From a virus, in the IMG/VR virus record IMGVR_UViG_3300044701_000673, positions 1-56,488 of that record: a DNA stretch of 56,488 nt. One strand, 5' to 3'. Shown here piece after piece: positions 1,407 to 48,102 of the stretch. Under the pieces are notes generated by a model. That model made no database searches, had not been told where the DNA came from, and saw only the letters and a list, made by a program, of their open reading frames with translations. The position numbers and the translations under genes were made by a program. Within the stretch, counting starts at the first letter, position 1. Each line of letters begins with the position of its first letter.

Positions 1407-2366
1407 TCAAGAGCGCTTCTGCCGATCGTACTCGGCATAGCGCCTGACGTATTGTTTGCGCAGTACGGTGTCATCCCACACTCCGGCCTCAATGAGAGCC
1501 TGCTTGCGCTCGGGGGAAATGTAAATCTCCTTGCGAGTGCTGGCGGGGGCGTGTTCTCGGCCCGATCCCACCGCAGGGCCGCCACGAGGCTCGCGGCGCG
1601 GCTCGTTGCGTTCTTCTGCGGCTCTCTTCGCAGGCTTCTGACCGTCGAACCGCTCGGGCAGTCGACGTGCCGCACGGCGGCGCAGCTCGTCCCAGTAGTC
1701 TGCGGAACGAGGGTCGTAGCCGTCCTTGGAGAGCGACTGGTCAATCGCGATGACGATGGCCGAGTCTTCGTCACGGCCCTGGGCGTCGTACCATGGGTTA
1801 TCTGCGATGAACTCTTTCGCGTAGGTCATCGTGATGTCGTCAATCTGCTGACCCTGCGGCTGGGGCCGCTGTGCTGCGAATTGGTTCTTTTGAGCGTTCA
1901 GTTGCTGAATGCGGGCCAGAGCCTGATCGCGATAGCGCATGGCCTGCGTGACGTCTTCGCCGTTGCCCGCTGCCACCGCCTTGGCGATGACGCGCTCAGC
2001 CATGTCAGCCTCTTTGGACGCCTGAGAAATCTCGGCGTCAAAGCTGCCCAAGTCCATCTTGTGCGTGCGCTGCTCTTGGGCCGACACGCGGCGCTCAAGG
2101 TCATCATTGCGCTTGCGCAGGAAGTCCAACTCCAGCTTGTCACGCTTGATGGCCTCATCGCGGCGCACCTTGCGGTCTTGTTTTTCCTGACGGCGGCGCT
2201 CGCGGATGGCCTCGCGTTCGTCGTCGGTGCCGTCGTCGTCGGATTGAGCTACCTGCTCGTCATCCTGATCGTCGTCGTCTTCATTGTTCTGCGAGAGTTT
2301 GCTCTCGTCTTCAACAATGACGATGTCTTCATCATTGTCGTCGTCTTCGCGGAGTGCTTCAGGCAT
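1407..2366 (-). CDS. Probable scaffolding protein
   Basis: A 319-residue, very charged protein. Residues 1-60 are dominated by Asp and Glu; the middle (about 60-170) is Arg/Lys/Glu/Gln-rich with heptad character and likely forms coiled coils; the tail is basic. This composition and the place between portal and capsid genes are typical of phage scaffolds that direct coat assembly and then leave the procapsid. No protease motif is visible. AAGGAG precedes the ATG by eight bases. The long open frame on the opposite strand is a shadow of its codon bias. Confidence 0.68.
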   Translation of the reverse strand: MPEALREDDDNDEDIVIVEDESKLSQNNEDDDDQDDEQVAQSDDDGTDDEREAIRERRRQEKQDRKVRRDEAIKRDKLELDFLRKRNDDLERRVSAQEQRTHKMDLGSFDAEISQASKEADMAERVIAKAVAAGNGEDVTQAMRYRDQALARIQQLNAQKNQFAAQRPQPQGQQIDDITMTYAKEFIADNPWYDAQGRDEDSAIVIAIDQSLSKDGYDPRSADYWDELRRRAARRLPERFDGQKPAKRAAEERNEPRREPRGGPAVGSGREHAPASTRKEIYISPERKQALIEAGVWDDTVLRKQYVRRYAEYDRQKRS

Positions 2367-2380
2367 TGTTCATCTCCTTT

Positions 2381-2806
2381 TCAGATGAATGCCTTGATCG
2401 CCAGCGGGTCAGAGGTGACCTGCCCGATGATGTCAAGGTCGTTGAAAATCACGAACATAGCGGACTCCATGTCGCCATTCGTTCCGCGCTTGCCCAAGGG
2501 GACTTCCCACCGATCGCCGCCGTACTTGGGCACGCGAACGAAGTCACCCGGCTTGCACCACTGACCCTCGGGCCAGCTCTCTTGGGTGTTGCGGTTTTTG
2601 AAAGACAGCGGCCCGACGTTAACCACCTTGGCCACCTGCGTGTTCCACTTCTCAGTGTCGCGGGATTCGCTGTGAAGAATAAGGCCGCCCGATGTCATCG
2701 TCTTGGGGGTCCGGATTTGAACCAGAACGCGGCTACCGAAAGGCTGTACGCCCGGATCAACGTCCGGGAAAGCCTCCGCCATTGCGCTCTCAGAGGTCGT
2801 TGTCAC
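2381..2806 (-). CDS. GroES-like co-chaperonin (Cpn10 fold)
   Basis: A 141-residue protein with Cpn10 features: an opening strand PFGSRVLVQI, a mobile-loop-like segment TPKTMTSGGLILHSES, a strand VAKVVNVGP, the GDFVRVPKYGG strand and the closing VIFNDLDIIGQV. It would cap host GroEL and help fold the coat protein, as T4 gp31 does. The start taken is GTG 2806-2804 with GAGGAG seven bases upstream; an in-frame ATG and TTG farther upstream are poorer. It overlaps the end of the preceding gene and lies in the head operon, which fits a coat-folding job. It is longer than bacterial GroES because of inserts after the mobile loop and before the last strand. Confidence 0.82.
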   Translation of the reverse strand: MTTTSESAMAEAFPDVDPGVQPFGSRVLVQIRTPKTMTSGGLILHSESRDTEKWNTQVAKVVNVGPLSFKNRNTQESWPEGQWCKPGDFVRVPKYGGDRWEVPLGKRGTNGDMESAMFVIFNDLDIIGQVTSDPLAIKAFI

Positions 2807-2987
2807 TGTATTTCTCCTCATCAAGAAGTTTTAAGAGTACGTTGATCGCTGCCTCATATCCGGCAACGACGCCGACACGATACCCGTACTCAAAGGCATC
2901 GCGAGCTTGTGGCCGACTCAAGGCGTCAACAGCGAACTGCTGCTGTTCTGCCTTGAGCCGGTTTAACAGTTTAGCTTCAATGCTCAC
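2790..2987 (-). CDS. Small conserved phage protein
   Basis: A 65-residue, mostly helical protein starting at GTG (MSIEAKLLNRLK). The GTG shares bases with the TGA of the upstream 46-residue gene (GTGA, four-base overlap), and its own end overlaps the GroES-like start, so the three genes are probably translationally coupled. It contains an AFEYGYRVGVVAGYE segment seen in small phage proteins of unknown function. Confidence 0.6.
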   Translation of the reverse strand: MSIEAKLLNRLKAEQQQFAVDALSRPQARDAFEYGYRVGVVAGYEAAINVLLKLLDEEKYSDNDL

Positions 2988-3124
2988 GCTTGGTTTTTCT
3001 CGACCTTGGGCGCGGGGGGCAGAGACTGCCCGTCACATTTTTCGCCCGCCGCCATGCGGTGCTTTTGCTTAACCAAAGCGCTGTTCATCGGAACTTCTTT
3101 GGCCTTGTTCGGGTTGTCGCTCAT
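2984..3124 (-). CDS. Very small basic protein (46 aa)
   Basis: A 46-codon frame starting MSDNPNKAKEVPMNS, with AGGAG about seven bases before the ATG at 3124 and a TGA that overlaps the next gene's GTG start. It is Lys-rich with one Cys and ends PKVEKNQA. It lies between the portal and the 65-residue gene and fills the gap with operon-like spacing at both ends, the main reason to call it a gene. Function unknown. Confidence 0.62.
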   Translation of the reverse strand: MSDNPNKAKEVPMNSALVKQKHRMAAGEKCDGQSLPPAPKVEKNQA

Positions 3125-3136
3125 AGCGCTCTCCTA

Positions 3137-5632
3137 TCAGGGGTTGGGGTTGATGCCTGTGCCGGTGCTCACGGCGACCTTCTCACCCGTCGCCATCTCG
3201 GCTGCGGCAAGCAGTTTCGCGGTGTCGTTGTCAGCCGTGTTCATGCGCTCACGGGCCGCGATCTCCTCTGCGGTGCGCATGCTCTCCTGCTGCTGCTTGA
3301 ACATATCAAGCTGCATCTGCTCGGCGCGAGCCTGCTGCTGCGCGGCCAGCTTCTGGGCCTCAAGCTGCTGCTGCGTCTGCATTTTTTGCGACTCAATCTG
3401 CATGCGGCCTTGGTCAATCGCAGCGCGCTGCTGCATCTCCTGACCCTTCATCTGCATGTTCATCTGAGCGATCTGCATGCTGTTGTCCGGCGGCATCGGC
3501 GGCTGCGGCTTGAACTGCTCGGCAGCCTGCGTGATGGCCGCAAGTTCCTGACCGAACCCACCAAGCTGCTGCTCGATCAGTTGCTGGACCTGAAGGATCA
3601 GCTTGACCTGCTGCTCGGCATCCGCCTCAATCAGACCCTCACGCTCTGCCTTGTCCACGGCATTGTGCGACTCAACGAGGTAGTAGTTCAGCAGGTGATC
3701 CTTCAGGTGCTGCGCCATTGCGTAGAGCGACGCCTGCATGATCGGTGGGTTGCCGCCAAGCAGCGGCGACTTCAGGAACGCCATGTGCGTCATGATGTGC
3801 GCCAGGTGATCCTGACGCGGCAGCACATAGAGCGGCCTGCCCATTGCAGCTGCCACGTTCTCGCTGACCGGGTCCATATCCTGCTCGGTCAACAGCGGCT
3901 GCAGGACTTCCTCTCCCGGCACCTTCAGGGTGCGAAGGAACATCTCCTCGACCTTACGCTGGTCGTAGAGCTGCGGCATCATGGCCGCCCGCTGCATGAT
4001 CGCTTGGATCTGAGCAAAGCGCTGCGTCTCGCTAAAGATCGCGGGATCGCTGACCGGCACGACATCCGACGGGCCGTCGAAGTCTGACGGGTCGATCTCA
4101 AGGCCCGATTCCTGCGCTGCGATGTCTTCTTCGGTCAGGTATGCCGAGTTGATGCGGTGCAGGATTTTGAAGCAGCGTGCCATGGCGCTGTGCAGGCGCG
4201 AGTGGATGCTGCTGAACACCACCATGCCCTGCTCAATCAGAGCCATGGTGGTGCCGACGGGCTGGTTAGGGTTCTGGTCAGACAGCTTCTCAAACGAGGT
4301 CTGCACCACGCCCTTGCCCGCGTCCACCAAGAAGCCCAGAAGCTGGAACAGCACCGGGCTCGGCGGGTTGAACGGCATCGGCATGGCAAGCTTGCGCACG
4401 TCGTCGATCAGCGCGCCGCCCTCCATCTCAACCACCTCGGTCGGCTGCAGGTTGATGGTCTGGCCGTTGGGGCCGCCCTTCAACTTCAAGAGCGTGGGCA
4501 CGTTCTGGATGTGGGCGCTGTCGAGCAGGGCGCGCAGGGCGCCCGTCGCGGCACCGCTCAGGCCGCCGATCATGTGCGTCAGGCCGATGGGGTAAGCCCC
4601 GCGCCACGGCACGAACGGGAACTCGACGATCCAGTCCAGCTCCTTGCGGTATTTGTCCTCGGCCTCCCAGTTACGGTAAAGCGACAGGGCTTGTCCGCTC
4701 GACTTGTCGATGCTCAGGATGTACGGGCTCAGGTCTTCTTCGTCGAACGACAGATACGTGTAGATCTCAAAGATCGTGCGCAGGCCGTCCTCGTTGTAGC
4801 TGGTCTCCTTGCGACCCTCGATCTTGTCGTTGGCTTGGCTCGCCTTGCTGAAGTCCGGATCTTCGGGCATGCCGATGTCAACGTCGCGGTACATCCCCGA
4901 CTTGACGCGCTTTTGGTAGTCCATCTTGGTGATGTACTGCACGTGCGTCTTGCGCTCGGCGGTGTAGAAGTTCGTCGCGGCGAACGGCAGGTACACGTCG
5001 TCGATCGGGATGAACTCGCTGGCCGGGCGACGATGCTGCGGGTTCCACATGAACTTCATGTACTGACCGCCGCCGAGGGGGAGCTGCGTGCTCAGCTGCT
5101 CCAGCTCGCCCCGGAACTCGGTCATCTGCTCGGTGGTCTGCCAATTCATGAACTCAGCCTTGCGCTGAGCCTTCTCGACTTTGACTTTGTCCGACTCGCC
5201 GTAGATCTTGCTCTTCACCGGGCCAGAAGGCGGGAAGACCTCCTTCATAAAGCGCGCGGAGAAGTCCACGCAGGCCTCGACCAGCATCGGGTGTACGACT
5301 TTAGTCGCACCTGAGAACTGCGCGCCGCCGGGTGCGTCATCGCCTAGTCCCGTACGACGCAGACCCTCCTCGTAGAGTTTGTCGCGCTTTTCGCGGGCTT
5401 CCTTGTCGCGGTCGATCTTTTCAAGGAGATCCTGCACGCACTCCTTCAGCTCGCCGGGGTCAACCTCGTCGACGATGTTGGCGAAGTGCTCAAGGTTCTT
5501 GCGCTCATCTTCCTCGTTCTCAAGGCGGATGATGGCGCCACCGTCCTCGGTGTCCTCGACCTCTGATGTCTCGTCCATCAGCTCAACCATCTCGCCTTCG
5601 AGCCGGTCCTCGTTCTCGTCAATATCAGCCAC
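3137..5632 (-). CDS. Portal protein
   Basis: An 831-residue protein that forms the dodecameric DNA gateway at one capsid vertex and binds terminase. An acidic N-terminus is followed by an alpha/beta core with VVHPMLVEACVDFSARFMKE and IPIDDVYLPFAATNF, typical of large podovirus-type portals, and a C-terminal third (about 660-800) very rich in Gln, Met and Ala that likely forms the helical barrel/crown. The start is GTG 5632-5630 with GAGG seven bases upstream. It overlaps the giant upstream gene by eight bases and precedes co-chaperonin, scaffold and coat genes. The large size fits the P22-like class rather than siphovirus portals. Confidence 0.85.
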   Translation of the reverse strand: MADIDENEDRLEGEMVELMDETSEVEDTEDGGAIIRLENEEDERKNLEHFANIVDEVDPGELKECVQDLLEKIDRDKEAREKRDKLYEEGLRRTGLGDDAPGGAQFSGATKVVHPMLVEACVDFSARFMKEVFPPSGPVKSKIYGESDKVKVEKAQRKAEFMNWQTTEQMTEFRGELEQLSTQLPLGGGQYMKFMWNPQHRRPASEFIPIDDVYLPFAATNFYTAERKTHVQYITKMDYQKRVKSGMYRDVDIGMPEDPDFSKASQANDKIEGRKETSYNEDGLRTIFEIYTYLSFDEEDLSPYILSIDKSSGQALSLYRNWEAEDKYRKELDWIVEFPFVPWRGAYPIGLTHMIGGLSGAATGALRALLDSAHIQNVPTLLKLKGGPNGQTINLQPTEVVEMEGGALIDDVRKLAMPMPFNPPSPVLFQLLGFLVDAGKGVVQTSFEKLSDQNPNQPVGTTMALIEQGMVVFSSIHSRLHSAMARCFKILHRINSAYLTEEDIAAQESGLEIDPSDFDGPSDVVPVSDPAIFSETQRFAQIQAIMQRAAMMPQLYDQRKVEEMFLRTLKVPGEEVLQPLLTEQDMDPVSENVAAAMGRPLYVLPRQDHLAHIMTHMAFLKSPLLGGNPPIMQASLYAMAQHLKDHLLNYYLVESHNAVDKAEREGLIEADAEQQVKLILQVQQLIEQQLGGFGQELAAITQAAEQFKPQPPMPPDNSMQIAQMNMQMKGQEMQQRAAIDQGRMQIESQKMQTQQQLEAQKLAAQQQARAEQMQLDMFKQQQESMRTAEEIAARERMNTADNDTAKLLAAAEMATGEKVAVSTGTGINPNP

Positions 5633-10184: not shown

Positions 10185-10348
10185 TTCTTCCTCGCAGCTC
10201 GCATGTTGTCGACGAGGTTCGGATAGGGGCGGCCCGCAGCCTCGGCCATGCGCTTGGCGCTGTCTTTCTTCTTATCCGAGAGGGGCTTGCTCTCGCCGAG
10301 ATCCTTGGGGCGCTTCTTGTCCCAGACGGGCTTAGGTTTAGACGGCAT
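10181..10348 (-). CDS. Small Lys-rich protein
   Basis: A 55-residue basic protein (MPSKPKPVWDKKRPKD ... NMRAARKK). The ATG at 10348 is chosen over a start 16 codons upstream because AAGGGA lies about eight to ten bases before it. It overlaps the terminase end by 11 bases and the giant gene's ATGA at its own end, so it is translated within the terminase-portal operon. The many Lys and Arg residues suggest nucleic-acid or capsid contact, but nothing more can be said. Confidence 0.6.
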   Translation of the reverse strand: MPSKPKPVWDKKRPKDLGESKPLSDKKKDSAKRMAEAAGRPYPNLVDNMRAARKK

Positions 10349-11909
10349 AAGGATTTCCCTTCTCGCGCTTGTATTGCTTGGGCTCGTCCCGGTCACGAGC
10401 TTGCGGCAGTTCGAACCATCCGTCGTTCTTCAGGTAGATGATCGCCTGAGTGAACGTGTCCACATAATCGTCATGGTCGGCCACCGGGAATTTGCTCAGT
10501 TGCTTCATGAAAGGCTGCGCCCAACTCACAGCCTGCCCACGGTTCTTCCCGCTCTCCGGCACCCACAACAAACCCAGCTCCAAGGTCGGCGCGGCTTGAT
10601 GCGCGCGGCTGACCTTGTCCGCCATGCCCGGATTATACCCGACCGCAGGCACTTTCGCTAGGCGCAAATCTTGCAGCAGGGACTGCCCGCTGGCCTTGGC
10701 TTCGACCAAGATGCGATCGGGCCTGCGTGCGCGCCTGATGCCGTCCTTGACGCTGGTGCCGCCGTACTCTGTGCCCCAGTCCTTGATCGCCCGGTTGCGC
10801 AGGTCAGGGTAAGACAGATGCTCATCCCACGCATCTATGAGCATGGCGTTGCGCTCGTTGTTGTGCGTGAAGATCGCCCAGACCGAGCAGGCTGTGGGGT
10901 CGCCCGTGGTCTTCTCGGTGAAGGCGCAGTCGTAGGACTGCAGGATGTATTCGAACTGCGGCAGCGCCTTGTCAGACGGCCAGAGCTCAAAGTAGTCCGT
11001 CTTGAGGATGCCGCCGCCGGTCGGGGTCGGATCTTGCTGCAGCTGGCCAGCCGTGCCGTACTCGCCGAGGAGCTGCTTGAGGGTGGTGATCTCTTTCTCG
11101 CCGAAGCGCTCCGGGCAGATCAGCTCGCCGATCTTCTTGCGTGGATCGTACGGGCCGAGGATGGTCCGCCGAGCCGCGCCGTCCCATTCAGCCGGAATGC
11201 AGATGTGTTCCCACCCGCCGATGTCTTCGAGGATGTGGCCGCTGATGTCCTTCTCATGCAGGCGCTGCATGACAGTGACCATGGCGTCGGTCTTCGGGTT
11301 GTTCAGTCGGGTCGACCACACCTGATCGAACCACTCCAGCGCCGACTCTCGCATGGCCTCTGACTGGGCATCCTGCGCGCCATGCGGGTCGTCAAGGATC
11401 AGGCGCGAGCCGCCTTCACCCGTTGCCGTGCCGCCGACCGAGGTGGCGATGCGGTAGCCTGTCTGATCGTTCTCGAAGCGCTGCTTGGCGTTCTGGTCGC
11501 CTGCCAGCCTGAACATGTGGCCCCAGCGCTCCTGATACCACGGCGACTGCACAAGGCGCCGAGCCTTCAAGTTGTCGCGGATCGACAGGTTGCCCGAGTA
11601 GGACGCGCAAAGGAACTTCTGTGCCGGATCGGTGAGCCACTCCCACATGGGCCACATGACGCTGACGATGGTTGACTTGGAGTGACGGGGCGGGATGTTG
11701 ACCAGCAGGCGGTGGATCTCGCCTGCGCTGACAGCCTCAAGATGCTCGCAGATCGCCTCGATGTGCCACGAGGGAATGAACGGGACGCCGGGCTCAACCA
11801 CATGCCACGCTTGGCGAACGAACTCGTAAAGCGATGCTGACGCCGCCCTGCGCTCCTGCTCCTTGCGGATGAGGTCCAGCATGACCTCGGGGCTGAGCTG
11901 AGCGTTCAT
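10338..11909 (-). CDS. terL: Terminase large subunit
   Basis: A 523-residue ATPase-nuclease that drives DNA into the prohead. The N-terminal ATPase has a Walker A-like NIPPRHSKST (71-80), Walker B ILDDPH (171-176) and a coupling-type VTVMQRLHEKD segment. The C-terminal RNase H-like nuclease half shows acidic residues in QSYDCAFTEKT (~335-345) and ILVEAKASGQSLLQDL. This arrangement matches the large terminase group with a Terminase_6-type C-terminal domain. It starts with an ATGA overlap after the small subunit and is followed by the portal block. Confidence 0.93.
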   Translation of the reverse strand: MNAQLSPEVMLDLIRKEQERRAASASLYEFVRQAWHVVEPGVPFIPSWHIEAICEHLEAVSAGEIHRLLVNIPPRHSKSTIVSVMWPMWEWLTDPAQKFLCASYSGNLSIRDNLKARRLVQSPWYQERWGHMFRLAGDQNAKQRFENDQTGYRIATSVGGTATGEGGSRLILDDPHGAQDAQSEAMRESALEWFDQVWSTRLNNPKTDAMVTVMQRLHEKDISGHILEDIGGWEHICIPAEWDGAARRTILGPYDPRKKIGELICPERFGEKEITTLKQLLGEYGTAGQLQQDPTPTGGGILKTDYFELWPSDKALPQFEYILQSYDCAFTEKTTGDPTACSVWAIFTHNNERNAMLIDAWDEHLSYPDLRNRAIKDWGTEYGGTSVKDGIRRARRPDRILVEAKASGQSLLQDLRLAKVPAVGYNPGMADKVSRAHQAAPTLELGLLWVPESGKNRGQAVSWAQPFMKQLSKFPVADHDDYVDTFTQAIIYLKNDGWFELPQARDRDEPKQYKREKGNPYAV

Positions 11910-12343
11910 TGCTCTTTGGGTTGGGCCTGAGCTTTAGCCATGAGTTTGGCCATAGCCGCAAGTTCGGTGTCGGTGAGGTTCTTGAGGTTCAAGGCCTGCG
12001 GCGTCATGGAGCCGTCGGAGGAGGTGAGGTCAACGTCCTGCTTCTCGCGCCAATCGCTCGGGAAGCGGTTTTTCATGTTGAAGATGTAGCTGGTCGCATT
12101 GAAACCGGGAACTGAGCCGAAGGTTGCCAGCTTGCCCTGACGCTCCCACCAGACCTGCGCGCGCTGCAGTCCGCGCTTTACGGCGCTGAAAAATTCAGGA
12201 TGTTCGTCCATCCAGTTTGTAATTGTTGCCCTATCAACATCACATGCTTCGGCCATTCCTGCGAGGGTTTCACCTTCTTCGCCTGCGGCTATGACGATGT
12301 CGCACATCGAGGGGTCGTATTTCGTAGGCCGTCCGGCTGGCAT
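11906..12343 (-). CDS. terS: Terminase small subunit
   Basis: A 145-residue protein with an N-terminal helix-turn-helix (GRPTKYDPSMCDIVI, then TLAGMAEACDVDRATITNWM) for recognising the packaging site and a helical oligomerisation and terL-binding tail. Size, fold and the ATGA overlap with terL support the call. A -10 type TATAAT lies about 45 bases upstream of the ATG, and GAGGGA acts as ribosome site. Confidence 0.85.
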   Translation of the reverse strand: MPAGRPTKYDPSMCDIVIAAGEEGETLAGMAEACDVDRATITNWMDEHPEFFSAVKRGLQRAQVWWERQGKLATFGSVPGFNATSYIFNMKNRFPSDWREKQDVDLTSSDGSMTPQALNLKNLTDTELAAMAKLMAKAQAQPKEQ

Positions 12344-12362: not shown

Positions 12363-12551
12363 TCACGGTGCGGATTGGTTGGCGGCCATTATACGCTCAG
12401 TGCTGACGAAAAGGAAGCCCGAGCGTTTTGATCCTAAAATACGTTTTGCTTCTTGCCTCGTCACGCCCAACTTGCGGGCTGCGTCTGAAACGCTGACGTA
12501 TTTGCCGATCGGTCGCGGCTTGCTGCCGTTGGGATGATACGGGCTGGTCAT
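12363..12551 (-). CDS. Small HTH-like DNA-binding protein
   Basis: A 62-residue protein with a predicted helix-turn-helix (YVSVSDAARKLGVTRQEAKRILGSK). It starts with an ATGA overlap after the transporter gene and ends 19 bases before the small terminase. It could regulate the terminase promoter that lies inside it or act as an excisionase-like factor; nothing else marks its target. Confidence 0.55.
   Translation of the reverse strand: MTSPYHPNGSKPRPIGKYVSVSDAARKLGVTRQEAKRILGSKRSGFLFVSTERIMAANQSAP
12388..12393 (-). promoter_or_regulatory. -10 element upstream of terminase genes
   Basis: TATAAT on the minus strand about 45 bases before the terS start, inside the end of the small HTH gene. The -35 region at 17-bp spacing (TTCCTT) is poor, so an activator or weak promoter is likely. 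The same TATAAT with a GC-rich flank occurs before 18304, 35957 and 52624. Confidence 0.4.
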
Positions 12552-13066
12552 CCTGTTTTTCTGAACCTAATCGCCATCAGGATGATTGCCGCAACAACTG
12601 TCATCCACAGTTTCCCCGCAATCTGGCCGGCGATGAAGTCAAAAGATCCAAAAGCCAGCCACAAGAACACGGCGCTATCTATCGCCGCTCCCACCACGCC
12701 TGATGCGATAACAGCCAGAACCAGACGCTTGCGATGGAGGGGAGCATATACGGCGAGGTCAGCCAACTCTGAGAGAAGAAACGCGGCAACCGATGCCACG
12801 ACAAGCGCAGGCGGTGAGAACTGGAAAGACAGGACGGCACCGAACAAGATGGCGGCGATTGCCCATTGCCATCCCAGCAGGCGATGCACGGCATCACGCA
12901 GGACTAAGGCCGCGCCAATCATCAGCACGCCAGAAGGGGCCATGAGGCCAAACCCTACTGGAATCAGGCAAGGTCCGTCTGGGATGCACTGGCCGACGTT
13001 GCCAATCATCCAGTTTGCTGTTGGTATTGTTGCTGCATATGCAGCCAAAGCGATGTATCCGTTCAT
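12548..13066 (-). CDS. YhhQ/VUT-family queuosine precursor (preQ0) transporter
   Basis: A 172-residue integral membrane protein with about six hydrophobic segments. Features of the VUT/YhhQ family (formerly DUF165) are visible: SELADLAVYAPLHRKR, then ASGVVGAAIDSAVFLWLAF and a closing GQIAGKLWMT segment. Family members import preQ0, a 7-deazaguanine precursor. The start is the ATG at 13066, which overlaps the stop of the TGT-like gene (ATGA); the longer frame from 13114 lies inside that gene. Direct coupling to a TGT/DpdA-like enzyme suggests the imported base is used for phage DNA or host tRNA modification. Confidence 0.78.
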   Translation of the reverse strand: MNGYIALAAYAATIPTANWMIGNVGQCIPDGPCLIPVGFGLMAPSGVLMIGAALVLRDAVHRLLGWQWAIAAILFGAVLSFQFSPPALVVASVAAFLLSELADLAVYAPLHRKRLVLAVIASGVVGAAIDSAVFLWLAFGSFDFIAGQIAGKLWMTVVAAIILMAIRFRKTG

Positions 13067-13743
13067 ACATGGAGATCCATTTGTTGAGGGCGAGTTTCCC
13101 AGCGCGCTGGGCATTGTGCGCCATCCCAGCGGTCAGCCATCTTGCGAGGTGTCTGATGCGGGAGATGGTGGTTTCGTGCGAGGTCGGTACTGTCCACTGA
13201 GCCGAATGGGTATTGCTTTCCAGATAACTGCATTCCGCGAAGCATGTGAAGCCACGGCATGCGTTTGTGGCGCGAGGCAAGTTCATTGAAGGCTTCATCC
13301 ATGCGGCGACACCAAGCGTCAGACAGCACGATTGCATATTCTGCTGTTGATCCCACGCAGACGCGAGGCCACTCGTCACAGAGTTGAAGGAGCCGATAGA
13401 TTGGCTCGTCCATATGCCAAACGGGCGCGCCCTTATGGCCATGAGGCCACTCCCGCAAAAGCGCATCTTGTTCCTGAGTTCCGGCGTCAATGACATCAGG
13501 GATCACGGCCCATGTGGTTGGGTAGTCAAGCCATTGATCGCACCACTGATAATACCCGTTCCAATTGGTCTGCTTTCCAGATTTCCAAGCTGAGAACGCG
13601 CCGTTATCCAACATCACAGACTGACCGATCATGTGAACCCGTGCGACATCCTGCGGCGCTGCATGTGAGACGCAGAAGCATCTGCCAGCAAGTTCCATTA
13701 TGGCTGAGATTGGCGTTATTGGCGTGCCGTGATAATGAATCAT
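13063..13743 (-). CDS. TGT-superfamily transglycosylase, DpdA-like (7-deazaguanine DNA modification)
   Basis: A 226-residue protein that looks like a compact TIM-barrel of the tRNA-guanine transglycosylase superfamily. Landmarks are SVMLDNGAFSAW (D46), WAVIPDVIDAG (D83), PVWHMDEP, a glycine turn RVCVGS and PFGSVDSTDLARNH (D184). DpdA enzymes swap guanine in DNA for preQ0-type bases; several phages use them to evade restriction. The start at 13743 shares bases with the upstream stop (ATGA); AAGAG is a weak ribosome site. Pairing with a preQ0 transporter is the main support for the DNA-modification reading. No zinc-binding Cys cluster of classical TGT is seen. A tRNA target cannot be excluded. 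Confidence 0.62.
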   Translation of the reverse strand: MIHYHGTPITPISAIMELAGRCFCVSHAAPQDVARVHMIGQSVMLDNGAFSAWKSGKQTNWNGYYQWCDQWLDYPTTWAVIPDVIDAGTQEQDALLREWPHGHKGAPVWHMDEPIYRLLQLCDEWPRVCVGSTAEYAIVLSDAWCRRMDEAFNELASRHKRMPWLHMLRGMQLSGKQYPFGSVDSTDLARNHHLPHQTPRKMADRWDGAQCPARWETRPQQMDLHV

Positions 13744-13961
13744 CTCTTCACCGCGATGTATTCGAAGAGGCCGAAACCTGCCCGCCTGCAAAACAGGAAA
13801 CACAGCTTTTCAGATTCCGCTTTGGCAGCCGCGTAGCGATGCAGGCCGCCGCAGCACTGTCCGACATGGTAAACGATGCGGTCACCCTTCTGCGCCTCTC
13901 CCAGCGCGCGGTAGAGGGCATCCTGCTTGGTGTCGCCGGTGATGTATATCGTGTTGCTCAT
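13740..13961 (-). CDS. Small protein coupled to the DpdA-like gene
   Basis: A 73-residue protein (MSNTIYITGDTKQDAL) with CCGGLHRYAAAKAESEK and an aromatic tail. Both ends overlap neighbours by four bases (ATGA), so it is made with the TGT-like enzyme. The nearby Cys pairs (QCCGG, CFLFC) could bind a metal. It may be an accessory or specificity subunit, inferred only from coupling. Confidence 0.55.
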   Translation of the reverse strand: MSNTIYITGDTKQDALYRALGEAQKGDRIVYHVGQCCGGLHRYAAAKAESEKLCFLFCRRAGFGLFEYIAVKR

Positions 13962-14542
13962 TCAATCACCCCGTCGCTGAGAAAGTCGATGTCATCTTCC
14001 AGATCGGCCTTCGGTCGGCGGACAGCTTTGACCTCGGCTCCGGGGAAGGCCAGCTTCACCGCGTTGACCAGCCCGTTGCGATGCTCATGCAATGCGACAG
14101 CAACTTCCCTCATGCTGTGGATCGCGATGCCGGGTCGCTTGGCGTAAGCTGCTGGCCACTCCCTGCCGTCTTCGATGATGCCGTAGACGGTGCCCTCGTA
14201 CTCATGCTCCCAGATCATCGGGTCGGAGATCGGCCTGCCCAGAGCGACCGCCTCGGCATCCATAGCGTTCAACCCACGGATGCATATCTCGACCCAGAAC
14301 TTTGTCTTGTCGGCGTCCTGCGCGTCAATGGCTGCATTCAGTCCAGCCATCGCCTTTCCCCACCTCGCCGCGCTGTCGGGCGACACCAGCTCGGGCAGTC
14401 GGTCGATGCCCCAGCGTTTGTCCATCTCATTCGACGCCCCGTCGAGTGGAGCCAGCGCGCTGTCGCATTTAATTTCAGCCGCCGTCGCCTGCTTGAACAG
14501 AACCCGGTCATCTTTCTTCTGGCGTTTCGGTCTCTGAGCCAT
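13958..14542 (-). CDS. Conserved phage protein of unknown function, first gene of the DpdA cassette
   Basis: A 194-residue soluble protein with a basic start (MAQRPKRQKKDDR) and conserved-looking segments WGKAMAGLNAAIDA, FWVEICIRGLNAMDAEA and MIWEHEYEGTVYGI. The ATG at 14542 is chosen over one nine codons upstream because GAGG lies about eleven bases before it. It follows the repeat/hairpin region and opens the ATGA-coupled run to the TGT-like enzyme and transporter. No motif reveals its role. Confidence 0.55.
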   Translation of the reverse strand: MAQRPKRQKKDDRVLFKQATAAEIKCDSALAPLDGASNEMDKRWGIDRLPELVSPDSAARWGKAMAGLNAAIDAQDADKTKFWVEICIRGLNAMDAEAVALGRPISDPMIWEHEYEGTVYGIIEDGREWPAAYAKRPGIAIHSMREVAVALHEHRNGLVNAVKLAFPGAEVKAVRRPKADLEDDIDFLSDGVIE

Positions 14543-14580
14543 CGTGCCTGTCCTCGTTGCCTGTCTCATCAGTTAACCTT

Positions 14581-14730: not shown

Positions 14731-15360
14731 TCACAGTTCACCCTGCATTTCCTCGTCGCAGTCACCACAAATGATCCTTGTTCCGACCTTCGCCCACGCC
14801 TTTGCGCCGCAGCATGAGCATGTGAATTTGACCTTGGAAAGGTCTTTCTTCTTCTCGGCTGCGGGGCGCGGCTGGGTGAAGTAGGGCAGCGAGAATCCAT
14901 CGGCAATGAGCTTGTGCATGGACGTCTCGAAGGCACCGCCAGCCTCAACGTAATGGGTCATCTGGCGGCCCGTCTGCTTGCCTCCCGGCTCGCCCGTGTT
15001 GCTGGGGATGAGGCCCACCCGCTCCATAAGCTTTACCCACTCCCGGTTGTGGTTGCCCTTGCTTCCGGGGGTGCCGTATTCCTGCTGCTCAAGGTGCGTC
15101 ATCTCGTGAACGAGGGTCGACAGGACGGCGTCCAGAGTGCGGTCCATGGTGTCGGGATTGAGGGCGATCTCGTGGGTGGGATCGCTGTCTTCGCGGTGCT
15201 TGAACTGCTCGGCCCAGAAGTAGCCGTGTGCCTTGCGCTTGCGGGTCAGGGTGAAGAGAACAGACGGCAGGCGGTGGTCGAACAGTTCCTTGTTGAAGTG
15301 GTTGAAGGCCTTGTCGAGGTTCTCGTAGGTCTCGGCGGTGGGGGTCTGGTAGTTGGTCAT
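14731..15360 (-). CDS. SprT-like zinc metalloprotease
   Basis: A 209-residue SprT-family protein. The catalytic helix has HEMTH (H85, E86, H89) with a third ligand probably in the NHNREW segment; a C-terminal zinc ribbon has CSCC and CGDC Cys pairs. The family (SprT/Spartan) is linked to breakdown of DNA-bound or cross-linked proteins. The ATG at 15360 overlaps the upstream stop (TGATG). Its place beside the repeat array and replication genes fits a role in DNA metabolism or host takeover, which is inference. Confidence 0.8.
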   Translation of the reverse strand: MTNYQTPTAETYENLDKAFNHFNKELFDHRLPSVLFTLTRKRKAHGYFWAEQFKHREDSDPTHEIALNPDTMDRTLDAVLSTLVHEMTHLEQQEYGTPGSKGNHNREWVKLMERVGLIPSNTGEPGGKQTGRQMTHYVEAGGAFETSMHKLIADGFSLPYFTQPRPAAEKKKDLSKVKFTCSCCGAKAWAKVGTRIICGDCDEEMQGEL

Positions 15361-15542
15361 CACAGCTTCTCCCATGCTGATTTATGTTTCCCGCCCTGCC
15401 AGCCGTGGCCAGATGACGTATCGCTCATGCGCACGGTGGCCCAGCCATGCTCGTTCCACTCGGTCAGGCGCTCGTAGGTGGCGACGCCGGGGTGACCCCA
15501 GCTATCGCGCGTTTCGGTGGTTTTGGTTTCAATGACGGTCAT
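15360..15542 (-). CDS. Small protein of unknown function
   Basis: A 60-residue protein (MTVIETKTTETRDSWG) with AAGGAG about ten bases before the ATG at 15542; an upstream in-frame start lies inside a hairpin and lacks such a site. It contains aromatic and Gly/His residues (GHGWQGGKHKSAWEKL). It is coupled to the SprT-like gene by a one-base overlap. Confidence 0.5.
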   Translation of the reverse strand: MTVIETKTTETRDSWGHPGVATYERLTEWNEHGWATVRMSDTSSGHGWQGGKHKSAWEKL

Positions 15543-15943: not shown

Positions 15944-18304
15944 TCACACCTCGTCGTGGCTGATCCAGTCGCCCTGCACGATGACGGCCACCTCTCTGGC
16001 CTGCCTCGGGTCGGTGATCCTATCGACGGCCAGCACGTTGGTCTTGATCCACGTCTTGACGATGGACGCGACCTTGGCCTTGCCTGCCTTGTCGCTGATG
16101 TCGATGCCGATCATGTCGCCCACGGCGACACCCACCCACCTCTTGGACTGCACGCTCTCACGGTACGGGTCACCGTCTTCTAAGGCGTTGGCCACGATCC
16201 TCTGGATGTTCCTTGCGTCCTTGGCGCTGATACCGTCGAAGGCATCGGGCAGGCTGTAGGGCACGCAGACGCCGATCCACTCGCCGTTGTCGATCTTGAC
16301 GCCCTCCATCTTCCTGTAGACCGCAGCGGCTGCTGGCGGGGCCAGATTGGCCTTCCCGTCATCTACCCGGAACACCGACCTCGCCTCGGTCTCGTCGATC
16401 CCAAGCTTCACGGCGTCGTCGGCTGACATGCGGTTGACCACCCGCGCCGCCCTAGCAGCCCCGATCAGGCTGCCCGCGCCACGCACGCTGTCGATGCTGG
16501 CATCATCGCTGCCATTGCCCTTGCGGATGTGGTGGACCAGCCCGATGGCGCATTTGGTCTCGTCAGCCACGCGCCTTATTTCCGCCACAATCGCGTTCAC
16601 GGCCATGTTATCATTTTCTTGAATGGCGTGGGCATTAACGAATGGGTCTATGAACACGCAGCCGATCTGCTTCTGCGGTATCTGCTTGCAGAGGTACTCG
16701 ACCAGCTTGGTATTGGGCAGGACGCCGTCGCGGGTCTGGATGCCAAACTTGAGGCTGAAGTCTCGGCCCGCGTTGACGAAGAGGCGCCCGCGCACGTCAT
16801 CGGGCTTGATCCCGTAATGCCGCATCGCAGCAAGGACGCGGCGCTGTATTTCCTCTAGGGGATCCTCGAGGTTGACCAGCCAGACGTTTGTCCGCTCCTT
16901 CACTTCCTCGCCCAAGAGCGGGCGGCCCGTCACGATGGCGAGGGCTTCCACGATCTGCAGGGATGTCTTCCCGATGCCGCCTGCCGATGCCAGCACGCTG
17001 ACGAAGGACCGCAGATAGTGGCTGGCGTATATCCAGCGGCGCGGTTCGATGCTGGCCTCGTCGAACATATCGTAGAGGGTGGGCCAATCCGGCGCGCTCT
17101 CGGGGGCGTCCGGGGTGTCGAAGTCGTCAAGGTCTATGTCGTCGTCCGACGAAATTTCGTTGGCGGGGTCTGCCACCTTTGTTTCGTTGACGATTCTCTC
17201 CGACGAAATTTCGTTGGAGGTGGGGGCCACATAGTCGAAATCATCCATGCCGTTCTGCGGAATGTCGATCTCCGCGTTGGTGCCCCTGATCTCGGCACCG
17301 TAGGCACGCACGGCGGCGTCGAAGTCTCCACGATGCTCGTAGTGGACCCACAAATCCCACGCATCACCCCAGCAGTATGAATGCTCGCCCAGAGACTTTT
17401 GCCTGCCGACACCAGCTGCCGCGTCTGAGCCTGACAGGCTGACCCAATGGGTGCCGAAATTCTGCGTCGCGTAGCTGTGGCTGGTTTGGTAGCGGGAGCG
17501 GTAATGATGGGACGATCCGCGCCGCTCGTATTGATAGCGTGCGAACAGGTCTTCGATGGAGTGGTCAGCGTTGAAGGCGTCCACCGGGCTGACCTGATCG
17601 GGGAACTTCTGGCGGCGTTCGGCACGCTGGCGGTCACGCTCCCGGCGCGCGATCTCGGCCTGCTCCGCGGCGAGGCGGTATTGTTCCAGCCTGCGGTCGA
17701 TCTCTTGGCGGATGGCGCTGTCTGCGTCGAGACGCAGGGTGCCAGCCCGGATGATGCGGTGCTGGTAGAAGATCGGGGTGAGATCCGGGTTGCGTTTGCC
17801 GAGCGGCACGTTGGGCAGGTAGATCGGCTGCCCGCAGCGTGCCAGCGCGCCGTCGGGGTGAATGCCTTGGGCGTGCAGGAGATCGAAGAGGGCGGTCTGG
17901 GCCAACTCGTAGTCGGCGCCGGTCAGAAAGGACGCCAGAGGCAGCAGGACGCGCCACTTGCGGTTTTCCGGGGTTGCGCCCGAGGATGAATAGGCGAGCA
18001 GGCTCACGGGCCCGCAGACGGCCTCCACAGCGGTCAGCACGTCGTCGAGGCTGGGGTTGCCACGGTCGATGTCGAGGGCCAGCATGCGGTACGCCCCACG
18101 CTCGCGCTGCGCCTCGTGGGATCTGCCATCATGCTCGCGGTAGGTCGAGGGGATGAAGAAGTCGGCGTCCTGCTTCTCCTTGGCCTGCGGGGTGGCGACC
18201 ATGCGGGCGATCTCGGCCCAAGAGATGCCAGGGTATGTCTGGCCGGGCTTGTCGATCAGGGTGTGGAAGGAGCCGGGGGCGGTCAGGAAGCGGATGTCAG
18301 ACAT
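15944..18304 (-). CDS. Primase-helicase (AEP-type primase fused to RepA-like RecA-fold ATPase)
   Basis: A 786-residue replication protein. The N-terminal half resembles archaeo-eukaryotic-type primases (RMLALDIDRGNPS; YSSSGATPENRKWRVLLPL). The C-terminal half is a RepA/AAA_25-type helicase with Walker A ASAGGIGKTS (~440-448 from this start), VWLVNLEDP, FIDPFVNAH (Walker B) and IGLVHHIRKGNGSDD. The acidic linker repeats NEISS. The start is uncertain: ATG 18304 and GTG 18328 both lack a ribosome site, whereas a good site with ATG exists at 18379 in the same frame but is followed by one TAA at 18344. It lies with SSB, nuclease and resolvase genes; no DNA polymerase was recognised, so the host enzyme is probably used. 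Confidence 0.82.
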   Translation of the reverse strand: MSDIRFLTAPGSFHTLIDKPGQTYPGISWAEIARMVATPQAKEKQDADFFIPSTYREHDGRSHEAQRERGAYRMLALDIDRGNPSLDDVLTAVEAVCGPVSLLAYSSSGATPENRKWRVLLPLASFLTGADYELAQTALFDLLHAQGIHPDGALARCGQPIYLPNVPLGKRNPDLTPIFYQHRIIRAGTLRLDADSAIRQEIDRRLEQYRLAAEQAEIARRERDRQRAERRQKFPDQVSPVDAFNADHSIEDLFARYQYERRGSSHHYRSRYQTSHSYATQNFGTHWVSLSGSDAAAGVGRQKSLGEHSYCWGDAWDLWVHYEHRGDFDAAVRAYGAEIRGTNAEIDIPQNGMDDFDYVAPTSNEISSERIVNETKVADPANEISSDDDIDLDDFDTPDAPESAPDWPTLYDMFDEASIEPRRWIYASHYLRSFVSVLASAGGIGKTSLQIVEALAIVTGRPLLGEEVKERTNVWLVNLEDPLEEIQRRVLAAMRHYGIKPDDVRGRLFVNAGRDFSLKFGIQTRDGVLPNTKLVEYLCKQIPQKQIGCVFIDPFVNAHAIQENDNMAVNAIVAEIRRVADETKCAIGLVHHIRKGNGSDDASIDSVRGAGSLIGAARAARVVNRMSADDAVKLGIDETEARSVFRVDDGKANLAPPAAAAVYRKMEGVKIDNGEWIGVCVPYSLPDAFDGISAKDARNIQRIVANALEDGDPYRESVQSKRWVGVAVGDMIGIDISDKAGKAKVASIVKTWIKTNVLAVDRITDPRQAREVAVIVQGDWISHDEV
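17146..17217. repeat. Two copies of a 12-bp palindrome inside the primase-helicase linker
   Basis: The 18-base sequence CCGACGAAATTTCGTTGG occurs at 17146-17163 and again at 17200-17217. Its core ACGAAATTTCGT is a perfect palindrome. Both copies encode the NEISS motif of the acidic linker, so the repeat may come from protein duplication, but exact identity with palindromic symmetry also suits a protein-binding site near a replication gene. Confidence 0.55.
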
Positions 18305-18321
18305 TGTGCGCACCACGACGC

Positions 18322-18350
18322 TTGCCACCAGATATAGACTGCATTATAGT
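18322..18350 (+). promoter_or_regulatory. Candidate rightward promoter of a small RNA
   Basis: TTGCCA (18322-18327), exactly 17 bases, TATAGT (18345-18350) on the plus strand. About 100 bases later lies a strong plus-strand terminator. Overlapping it on the minus strand is a perfect TATAAT (18348-18343) that could instead serve the primase-helicase gene. Confidence 0.45.
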
Positions 18351-42171: not shown

Positions 42172-43383
42172 TTAGCCTTTGGTGATGGCGTGGACATGGT
42201 CACTGCCCACCGAAACCTGCATCCAGTTGGTCGACGCACCAATTTGAACAGGGCTGGACTTAGCAACAACAGTGCCGTCGCCGATTTGACCAAATGGGTT
42301 GTTACCCCACGAAAAAAGAGTGCTCGACGTCGTGACGCAAGCGCTGTTAGTAAGCCCCGCTGAAACCCCCGCCCAGTTTGTTAACGCGCCGACTTGAACA
42401 GGGCTGGAGCGGCTAATCGTGTCCCCAAGGCCAAGACGCCCTTGACCGTTACTACCCCAAATAAATAGAGTGCCCCCCGCTGTAGTGCAGGCTGTGTGTT
42501 GACCCCCCGCTGAAACCTGCGCCCAGTTTGTTAGTGCGCCGACTTGAACAGGACTAGAAAGGTTGATGCCGTTGTTGTGGCCGAGCTGACCGTCGCTGCC
42601 GTTCCCCCATGAAAAAAGGGTGCTGTCAGTCTTGACGCAAGCGGTTAGGTTTCCACCGGCTGAAACCTGCGCCCAGTTTGTTAAAGCGCCCACTTGAACA
42701 GGACTAGAGCGATTGATGATTGTGCCGTCGCCAAGCATGCCTTTTCCGTTGTAGCCCCACGACCACAAAGTTCCGTCAGTTTTAACGCAGGCAGTATGCA
42801 AACCGCCCGCTGAAACCTGCGCCCAGTTTGTTAAAGCGCCCACTTGAACAGGACTAGAGCGATTGATGATTGTGCCGTCGCCAAGCCGCCCATAGCTGCC
42901 GTCCCCCCACGTGAACAGCGTACCATCCGTCTTGACACAAGCCATGTGATCTAGGCCCGATGAAACCTGCGCCCAGTTAGTTAGTGCGCCAACTTGAACA
43001 GGACTAGAAGAAGACGCAACACTGTCGTGCCCTAGTCGGCCACTGGCTCCGTTACCCCACGTAAAAAGTGTGCCCGCCGTCGTAACACTTGCGGCTTGAC
43101 TCCGGCCCGATGAAACCTGCGCCCAGTTAGTTAACGCACCAATCTGAACAGGACTAGACTTGTCGATGACAGTGCCGTCGCCAAGCTGCCCGCTGGGACT
43201 GTTGTCCCCCCAAGCATAAAGCTCCCTCGGCAAAACCTTCTGCGGCCAGTTCCCCGCCTTTTGCAACCCAAGCTGCTCAGCCAGCGTCCAGACGCCAGAC
43301 GCGGAACCGCCCTCGCCGTCAACGGGTGCGACGACCGTGGGCGGTGTCTTGCTGATTACGCCACCGGGGAAGCGGTCGCCCAT
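42172..43383 (-). CDS. RCC1-repeat propeller protein 1
   Basis: A 403-residue protein with seven RCC1-type repeats of about 50 residues (LFTWGNGASGRLG; RSSPVQVGALTNWAQVSAG), which should close into a seven-bladed propeller. An ~80-residue N-terminal region, without RCC1 repeats, may anchor it to the particle. Two repeats share ~78 identical bases (42660-42737 and 42810-42887). Phage proteins of this type are probably exposed virion or receptor-binding parts. AAGGAG precedes the ATG. Confidence 0.72.
   Translation of the reverse strand: MGDRFPGGVISKTPPTVVAPVDGEGGSASGVWTLAEQLGLQKAGNWPQKVLPRELYAWGDNSPSGQLGDGTVIDKSSPVQIGALTNWAQVSSGRSQAASVTTAGTLFTWGNGASGRLGHDSVASSSSPVQVGALTNWAQVSSGLDHMACVKTDGTLFTWGDGSYGRLGDGTIINRSSPVQVGALTNWAQVSAGGLHTACVKTDGTLWSWGYNGKGMLGDGTIINRSSPVQVGALTNWAQVSAGGNLTACVKTDSTLFSWGNGSDGQLGHNNGINLSSPVQVGALTNWAQVSAGGQHTACTTAGGTLFIWGSNGQGRLGLGDTISRSSPVQVGALTNWAGVSAGLTNSACVTTSSTLFSWGNNPFGQIGDGTVVAKSSPVQIGASTNWMQVSVGSDHVHAITKG
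42561..42641. repeat. Segment shared between RCC1 genes (copy 1)
   Basis: These 81 bases match 46956-47036 in the third RCC1 gene with one mismatch, far more alike than the surrounding repeats. It looks like recent gene conversion or recombination between paralogs. Confidence 0.85.
42660..42887. repeat. Near-identical RCC1 repeat units
   Basis: The segment beginning at 42660 is repeated exactly for about 78 bases starting at 42810, a period of 150 bases (50 codons). Identity at silent sites points to recent duplication or exchange. Confidence 0.85.
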
Positions 43384-46713: not shown

Positions 46714-48102
46714 TTATACTACTCCGAGGATAGCGAAGGTTTGAGCCCCACCTGACGAAACTTGCAGCCAAGTCGTAAGGGCGCCAACTTGGACGGGGCT
46801 GGATAAGTTGATATCGTTGTTATGGCCAAGGCGGCCGCTTCCGTTGTTTCCCCAAGTAAACAGTGTCCCCGCCGTTGTGATGCAGGCGGTCTGGGTGCTA
46901 CCCGCCGCACCCTGTGCCCAATTGGTTAAAGCGCCAACTTGAACGGGGCTGGAGAGGTTGATGCCGTTGTTGTGGCCGAGCTGACCGTAGCTGCCGTTCC
47001 CCCATGAAAAAAGGGTGCTGTCAGTCTTGACGCAAGTGTTGAAGTAATTTCCCGAAGAAACCTGAGCCCAGTTCGTTAGAGCGCCGACTTGCACGGGACT
47101 GGAATGGTCGACGACGTTGTTGTGGCCGAGCTGGCCAAAGTTGCTGCTGCCCCAAGTGAAGAGAGTGCCTGCTGTCGTGACGCAAGCGGTAAAACCAGTT
47201 CCTGCCGAAGCCTGAGCCCAATTTGTTAATACGCCGACCTGCACAGGGCTGGAACGGCTGATCGTGTTGTTGTGGCCGAGACGGCCGGATTGATTGAGTC
47301 CCCACGTAAAGAGTGTTCCCGCCGTTGTTACACAGACGGTGTGGAAGTTTCCTATAGCAGCCTTTGCCCAATTAGTTAAAGCACCTACTTGCACAGGGCT
47401 AGATCGGCTAGTTGTGTCGCCAAGTCCGAGACGGCCATAGCTCCCGTTGCCCCAAACAAAGAGCGTTCCCGCTGTCGTGACGCAAACGGTGTGAGCCCCC
47501 TCGGCACGCGAAGCAACCTGCGCCCAATTGGTTAAAGCGCCAACTTGAACGGGGCTGGATAAGTTGATATCGTTGTTATGGCCAAGGCGGCCGCTGCCAT
47601 TGTAGCCCCAAGTAAACAGTGTCCCCGCCGTTGTGATGCAAGCGGCAAAGTTATAACCTGACGCAACTTGTGCCCAATTGTCTAAGGCGCCAACTTGGAC
47701 GGGGCTAGAACGGTTGATAGTGTCGCCAAGGCCAAGGCGGCCGCTTCCGTTGCCGCCCCACGCATACAACCCGGCCCCAGAGTATATCTCGTTCCCCGTA
47801 TCAAACTCCGTCAGCCGCCCCGGCCCGAAGTTGTTGACCGCCTGCGCGCGAATTTTGAACGTGCCGCCGCCGGGAGAGATCGAAATAGGTGAAGCAGACC
47901 CAGTAGCCCCTGTCGAGACGCCCGTGCTCTCGTCAATCGCCGTGACGATGTACGACGTGATCGCGCCGTCACCCGTGTCGGTGGGCGCGGTAAACGAAAC
48001 GCTGGCCGAGCCGATGCTCGTGCTCACACTGAGATCAGTGGGCGCGTTCGGTGTACTGAGAGGCGTGAAGGTGCCTAGTGTGCCGCCTTGTCTGCGAGAC
48101 AT
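46714..48102 (-). CDS. RCC1-repeat propeller protein 3 with fibronectin III domain
   Basis: A 462-residue protein. Residues ~15-105 form an Fn3-like domain (APTDLSVSTSIGSASVSFTAPTD; GGTFKIRAQAVNNFGPG), then seven RCC1 repeats follow. Fn3 domains are common on phage surface proteins. GAGGAG is seven bases before the ATG. The 81-base segment at 46956-47036 is nearly identical to the first RCC1 gene. Confidence 0.72.
   Translation of the reverse strand: MSRRQGGTLGTFTPLSTPNAPTDLSVSTSIGSASVSFTAPTDTGDGAITSYIVTAIDESTGVSTGATGSASPISISPGGGTFKIRAQAVNNFGPGRLTEFDTGNEIYSGAGLYAWGGNGSGRLGLGDTINRSSPVQVGALDNWAQVASGYNFAACITTAGTLFTWGYNGSGRLGHNNDINLSSPVQVGALTNWAQVASRAEGAHTVCVTTAGTLFVWGNGSYGRLGLGDTTSRSSPVQVGALTNWAKAAIGNFHTVCVTTAGTLFTWGLNQSGRLGHNNTISRSSPVQVGVLTNWAQASAGTGFTACVTTAGTLFTWGSSNFGQLGHNNVVDHSSPVQVGALTNWAQVSSGNYFNTCVKTDSTLFSWGNGSYGQLGHNNGINLSSPVQVGALTNWAQGAAGSTQTACITTAGTLFTWGNNGSGRLGHNNDINLSSPVQVGALTTWLQVSSGGAQTFAILGVV
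46956..47036. repeat. Segment shared between RCC1 genes (copy 2)
   Basis: The partner of 42561-42641, one mismatch in 81 bases, which changes one residue (Asp to Tyr) of the repeat. Confidence 0.85.

Follow-up and report, generated by a model that had tools for sequence, protein, structure and literature searches.

We identified, in a phage contig, a gene for a short DpdA-like transglycosylase followed by a gene for a VUT/YhhQ-family transporter, and the two likely constitute a salvage-type module for 7-deazaguanine modification of DNA. In the window, which is the whole analysed stretch of 56,488 bases (record IMGVR_UViG_3300044701_000673), the minus strand carries a terminase pair (10338-12343) and, at 15944-18328, a gene for replication (AAA/primase-helicase). 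Between them are five minus-strand ORFs chained by literal ATGA overlaps, with junctions at 12548-12551, 13063-13066, 13740-13743 and 13958-13961. From upstream to downstream, they encode a 203-aa protein (13958-14569), a 73-aa protein (13740-13961), a short DpdA-type guanine transglycosylase of 226 aa (13063-13743), a VUT/QPTR transporter (COG1738, YhhQ family) of 172 aa predicted to import a 7-deazaguanine precursor (12548-13066), and a 62-aa HTH-like protein (12363-12551). The ORF positions, the ATGA joins and the enzyme motifs VMLDNGAF, VIPDVID and GSVDSTD are as stated in the original prediction, which was made from the sequence letters. At the DNA level, no known phage matched the whole region.

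Purifying selection acts on the two central genes: compared with three related loci (L009, L011, L015; dS 0.5-1.7), dN/dS was 0.03-0.06 for dpdA and 0.05-0.12 for vut. The 73-aa ORF had been counted as a cassette member, and we removed it as a passenger, since it had no family match in Pfam, PHROG or NCBIfam, no match among 50,697 phage records and no conserved linkage with dpdA-vut: it is missing beside the pair in the close relatives L010-L014 and lies apart from dpdA in L017. The 203-aa ORF had no Pfam or PHROG match, the NUMOD1/HTH similarity of the 62-aa ORF was weak and below the cut-off, and neither of them showed a link to the modification system. In addition, the window encodes a SprT-like metallopeptidase upstream of the cassette (14731-15375; Pfam SprT-like, 40 bits) and two RCC1-type repeat proteins (42172-43383 and 46714-48102; phrog_7220 and others).

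The enzyme start was placed at the ATG at 13743 because the window's relatives begin with MIHYHG; the GTG at 13803 is unsupported by relatives. The protein matches phrog_887 (queuine tRNA-ribosyltransferase, E=3e-47), to which the DpdA of phage 9g also belongs (E=2e-98). Six residues within the three motifs (D46, P82, D83, S182, D184, S185) are invariant in 73 relatives. When the profile of these 73 sequences was compared with 9g DpdA by hhalign (probability 95%, P=2.4e-8, 147 columns), D46 coincided with the aspartate of DSGAF and D184 with that of CDSSSW, and comparison with the DpdA of Pantoea phage MED16 gave a probability of 100% with 41% identity over 194 columns. As the original prediction proposed, the enzyme is DpdA-like, a homology supported by profile comparison, and it very probably swaps some guanines in phage DNA for a rarer base.

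A TGT-fold barrel had been expected for 13063-13743. The AF2 model was confident and barrel-like (pLDDT 94.7, pTM 0.90), but Foldseek returned generic TIM barrels, and the 50 best-ranked solved structures included no TGT. Profile comparison with the TGTs of bacterial hosts was not significant, so that the link to the TGT superfamily runs through DpdA only. Searches of solved structures by sequence, with the single sequence or the profile, gave no meaningful match, and PF01702 (TGT) had no match in the window. TGT carries a Cys3-His zinc site at its C-terminus; the phage enzyme, with 226 residues and only one Cys in the C-terminal tail, has no room for this site.

These features bear on whether the enzyme acts on host or phage tRNA and not on DNA, the transporter then boosting queuosine-type tRNA modification to help translation. 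TGT-superfamily chemistry is common to both activities, and Hutinet 2019 (PMC6884629) proposed tRNA effects for phages that have pathway genes without DpdA. We nevertheless regard a tRNA role as improbable: the detectable homology is with DpdA and not with TGT, the plainly delimited host TGTs have 361-379 residues, 9g dpdA failed to complement an E. coli delta-tgt strain (PMC6884629), and a TGT is already present in every one of the 11 checked host genomes that carry a related enzyme.

The transporter scores 42.5 bits with the Pfam Vut_1 model (PF02592), above its cut-off of 27.2 and in agreement with its original assignment to the VUT/YhhQ family, and matches phrog_4899 (E=1e-38). The longest ORF starts at 13114, and the ATG at 13066 agrees with the start of relatives. 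Phage and host transporters were compared by single-sequence HMM scores; a profile comparison between them, which was contaminated by prophage copies, was left out. Vut_1 is common to the phage protein and E. coli YhhQ (COG1738), but the former is a distinct subtype, scoring 38.9 bits against a cut-off of 50.95 for the queuosine precursor transporter equivalog TIGR00697 and 19 bits against one of 252 for the NCBIfam equivalog PRK11212. Because the TIGR00697 score is below the cut-off, its substrate could differ. A profile of the phage subtype (A2) nevertheless finds typical chromosomal QPTRs (E 7e-17 and 6e-19). In a Rhizobiales genome (G001, locus L224), a non-prophage homologue of the same subtype (3068-3646) starts inside the end of queC (2353-3075), and this overlap is the best indication here of a substrate from the preQ0 pathway. 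The transporter probably imports the building block, predicted to be a 7-deazaguanine precursor. Regarding other matches, the human-gut "phage" record MT837598 (MT837598.1, L213) was set aside, as bacterial housekeeping-type genes lie beside its VUT gene. It is probably a misfiled phage record, and so is OR850331.1 (hit H7), a 1.7-kb "Staphylococcus" phage record in which the enzyme scores like copies in Salmonella phages.

Viral contigs were searched with the enzyme and the transporter separately, which gave two samples of non-redundant loci (<88% identity) with enough flanking sequence. In the transporter-anchored sample, the same enzyme was encoded within 2 kb of the transporter and on its strand in 27 of 31 loci, upstream of the transporter in 20 and downstream in 7; because the queries for both samples were close to the window, the figures describe its part of family space and not all phage VUT genes. 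The pairing is real and occurs in many unrelated phages, which upholds the reading of the two genes as a genuine pair.

The remaining four loci encode a different protein of about 205 aa directly upstream of the transporter, belonging to phrog_15826 and having the motifs DNGG, PDVVG, FIGGT, GRVN and DSCDG. GreaseLightnin gp55 and Aoka gp40, the latter annotated as DpdA-like, are members of phrog_15826, and ReqiPine5 gp03 aligns with both; all three genes are beside a VUT gene or one gene away from it. Altogether, phrog_15826 looks like another family of DpdA-like transglycosylases. Its similarity to the window enzyme was weak (E=0.0045; profile comparison P=2.9e-4) and is suggestive of distant homology only. 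In phage phiLM21, VUT is paired with a third type, a phrog_1279 transglycosylase. The proteins of the phrog_15826 type beside VUT in other phages are at L109:3390-4001, L112, L125, L128, L210:2991-3602, L211:2944-3564 and L212:3266-3892.

The enzyme-anchored sample gave a wider set of partners. Among 34 viral loci, VUT was found in 18 (accompanied by another partner in 6), a PTPS/QueD-like gene in 9, only an ORF of about 80 aa in 5, and none of these in 2. QueD-like genes did not occur with VUT (0/10 vs 21/42; Fisher p=0.003) and never occurred together with the QueF-Like family described below (p=0.01), and these p-values are weakened by shared ancestry, because a single clade holds 6 of the 10 QueD loci. 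Mapped on the enzyme tree, the five partner states require 25 changes, and the label "transporter only" alone requires no fewer than 11, counted on well-supported branches. It means that the supply partners were swapped repeatedly along the enzyme tree.

Since close relatives make up many of the loci near the window, the pairing might be thought a chance or hitch-hiking neighbourhood within one phage lineage, with no functional module. This is very unlikely in our judgement, for the counts come from loci below 88% identity, seven of these loci have the reverse gene order, the partner label changed many times on well-supported branches, and the transporter pairs with two further transglycosylase families.

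The unannotated family of about 80 aa (A4) corresponds to phrog_37496 and has the invariant residues C12, P13, Y21, E34, E49 and H69. All of its 56 matches in the fetched loci are near the enzyme gene and on the same strand, and most overlap or abut it. Its structural model (pLDDT 96.8) has the order b-b-a-a-b-b, the best structural matches were archaeosine synthase QueF-Like (TM to query about 0.7-0.8), and sequence comparison with the same protein gave E=4.8e-5 and brought the catalytic-type Cys into alignment. The family is predicted to have the archaeosine-synthase QueF-Like fold. Its members (L181:7759-8001, L047:3797-4036, L021:3771-4001 and others) were seen in phages and in Pseudomonas and Burkholderiales genomes. 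Besides, shortened QueD-like proteins of 94-98 aa are encoded beside short DpdA genes (L043:3711-4001, L058:3711-3992, L062:2196-2489, L005); the HGH motif is kept in several of them, they score around or below the Pfam PTPS cut-off, and their function may have changed.

No gene for QueC, PTPS/QueD, FolE, a radical SAM protein or canonical TGT was found in the 56,488-base window, as the original prediction had noted for the synthesis genes, and the 9g-type de novo preQ0 pathway (FolE, QueD, QueE, QueC) is not encoded there. QueC, FolE and radical SAM proteins were also not found in 51 viral records including the window, while control genomes were positive; QueE is likewise absent from these records, since no radical-SAM protein was found. 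This absence is firmest in long or complete contigs such as those of the named phages, because many records are fragments. It had been concluded that the phage would live on imported precursor, which is one reading only, as preQ0 might also come from a host that synthesises it.

Full-length QueC was found in 9 of the 11 host genomes in which a related enzyme occurs. This would fit a host that makes its own preQ0 and a phage transporter that serves other uptake (purine or deazapurine) or export, a reading that the sub-threshold TIGR00697 score also allows. Such a function seems unlikely to us, because almost every viral copy of the transporter adjoins a DpdA-like gene, the transporter alternates with QueD-like and QueF-Like genes, and the bacterial homologue overlaps queC. 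A convincing QueC was missing in two of the three genomes with both enzyme and transporter (Devosia and Rhizobium) versus none of the eight without the transporter, a correlation (p about 0.05) from a small sample of incomplete genomes, one of them a MAG, and therefore a lead only. The sample stayed small because a search of 398 genomes of one order found the enzyme only in the starting genome.

For the salvage module preferred here, we infer the following mechanism. Into the infected cell, the transporter would bring a 7-deazaguanine base (most likely preQ0, though preQ1 or a relative is possible), which would supplement any supply made by the host. The short DpdA would exchange guanine in phage DNA for the imported base by TGT-like base-exchange chemistry, with D184 as the predicted nucleophile and D46 as the predicted general acid/base or substrate-binding residue. 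Lacking a de novo pathway, the phage would draw the ring from the environment or the host. The modification is probably sparse or sequence-specific and not complete.

Protection of the DNA would be the presumed benefit, and it is the weakest step of this mechanism. The description of the locus as a compact anti-restriction system is not supported here: in MED16, the closest measured DpdA-only relative, dADG amounts to about 0.13% of G and G-containing restriction enzymes cut the DNA (PMC8306585). The system may work with no anti-restriction role, its sparse marks serving in packaging, in regulation or in evading one particular nuclease; we consider this a serious possibility, though not the favoured one. 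MED16 agrees with it in having no resistance to the tested enzymes beyond effects explained by m6dA (PMC8306585), while the modification in 9g and others, which blocks restriction enzymes (PMC6884629), speaks against it. Because MED16 is said to carry dpdA only, a phage bearing an importer might be modified more heavily.

Taking the relatives together, we lean slightly towards the view that the short DpdA family represents a widespread, synthesis-free class of phage DNA-modification systems, in which one transglycosylase works with an exchangeable partner. This partner would be a COG1738 importer, a QueD-like protein raising host flux, or the QueF-Like protein of about 80 aa, which may convert preQ0 to a base of the archaeosine or preQ1 type; the importer version may be suited to hosts unable to make preQ0. 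Three PHROGs of unknown function thereby gain predicted roles (4899 as transporter, 37496 as QueF-Like, 15826 as DpdA-like), and for most members of one DpdA-like family, a neighbouring gene can now be named as a possible means of supplying or tailoring the base. The question of the base source becomes testable in isolated phages, namely Pam5, RHph_N3_2, Aoka and DMCA.

Among known systems, insertion of preQ0 into DNA was shown experimentally for 9g DpdA (PMC6884629). This enzyme and that of the window are both virus-encoded members of phrog_887 with DxGAF and DSS/DST motifs and aligned aspartates, but 9g DpdA has 317 aa and lies within a full preQ0/G+ synthesis cluster, whereas the 226-aa window enzyme is accompanied by a transporter and no synthesis genes. 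MED16, in which dpdA is the sole pathway gene reported (PMC8306585), resembles the window in the enzyme, 41% identical, and in the absence of synthesis genes; it differs in that its dpdA has no annotated transporter within 3 kb and in the longer C-terminus of its DpdA.

A transporter in a phage of this kind is not a new idea. Transporters of preQ0/preQ1 were described in phages Vid5 (2018, PMC6266253) and EC151 (2021, PMC8310023) alongside synthesis genes. Like the window, both are dpdA phages with a COG1738/VUT transporter, but theirs occurs with three or four preQ0 synthesis genes and that of the window without any. Hutinet 2019 (PMC6884629) already knew DpdA-only phages, suggested uptake and noted YhhQ homologues in some phages with no correlation to groups; the source of the base in phages with DpdA and without synthesis genes, a large group, was left open there.

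Close named relatives are Rhizobium phage RHph_N3_2 and Pseudanabaena phage Pam5, whose enzymes are 70-73% identical to that of the window, with VUT directly after the enzyme in the former and one gene later in the latter. Their genes are labelled only as hypothetical/transglycosylase and DUF165/VUT, and the system is not described in these records. As far as checked, it is new that enzyme and transporter form a near-obligate pair across a large set of phages lacking synthesis genes, and so are the interchange of the transporter with QueD-like and QueF-Like partners and the roles predicted for the three PHROGs; some of this may already be in the DpdA literature of 2023-2024. The individual parts of the system were already known, and the repeated trading of supply genes among related viruses is what is new.
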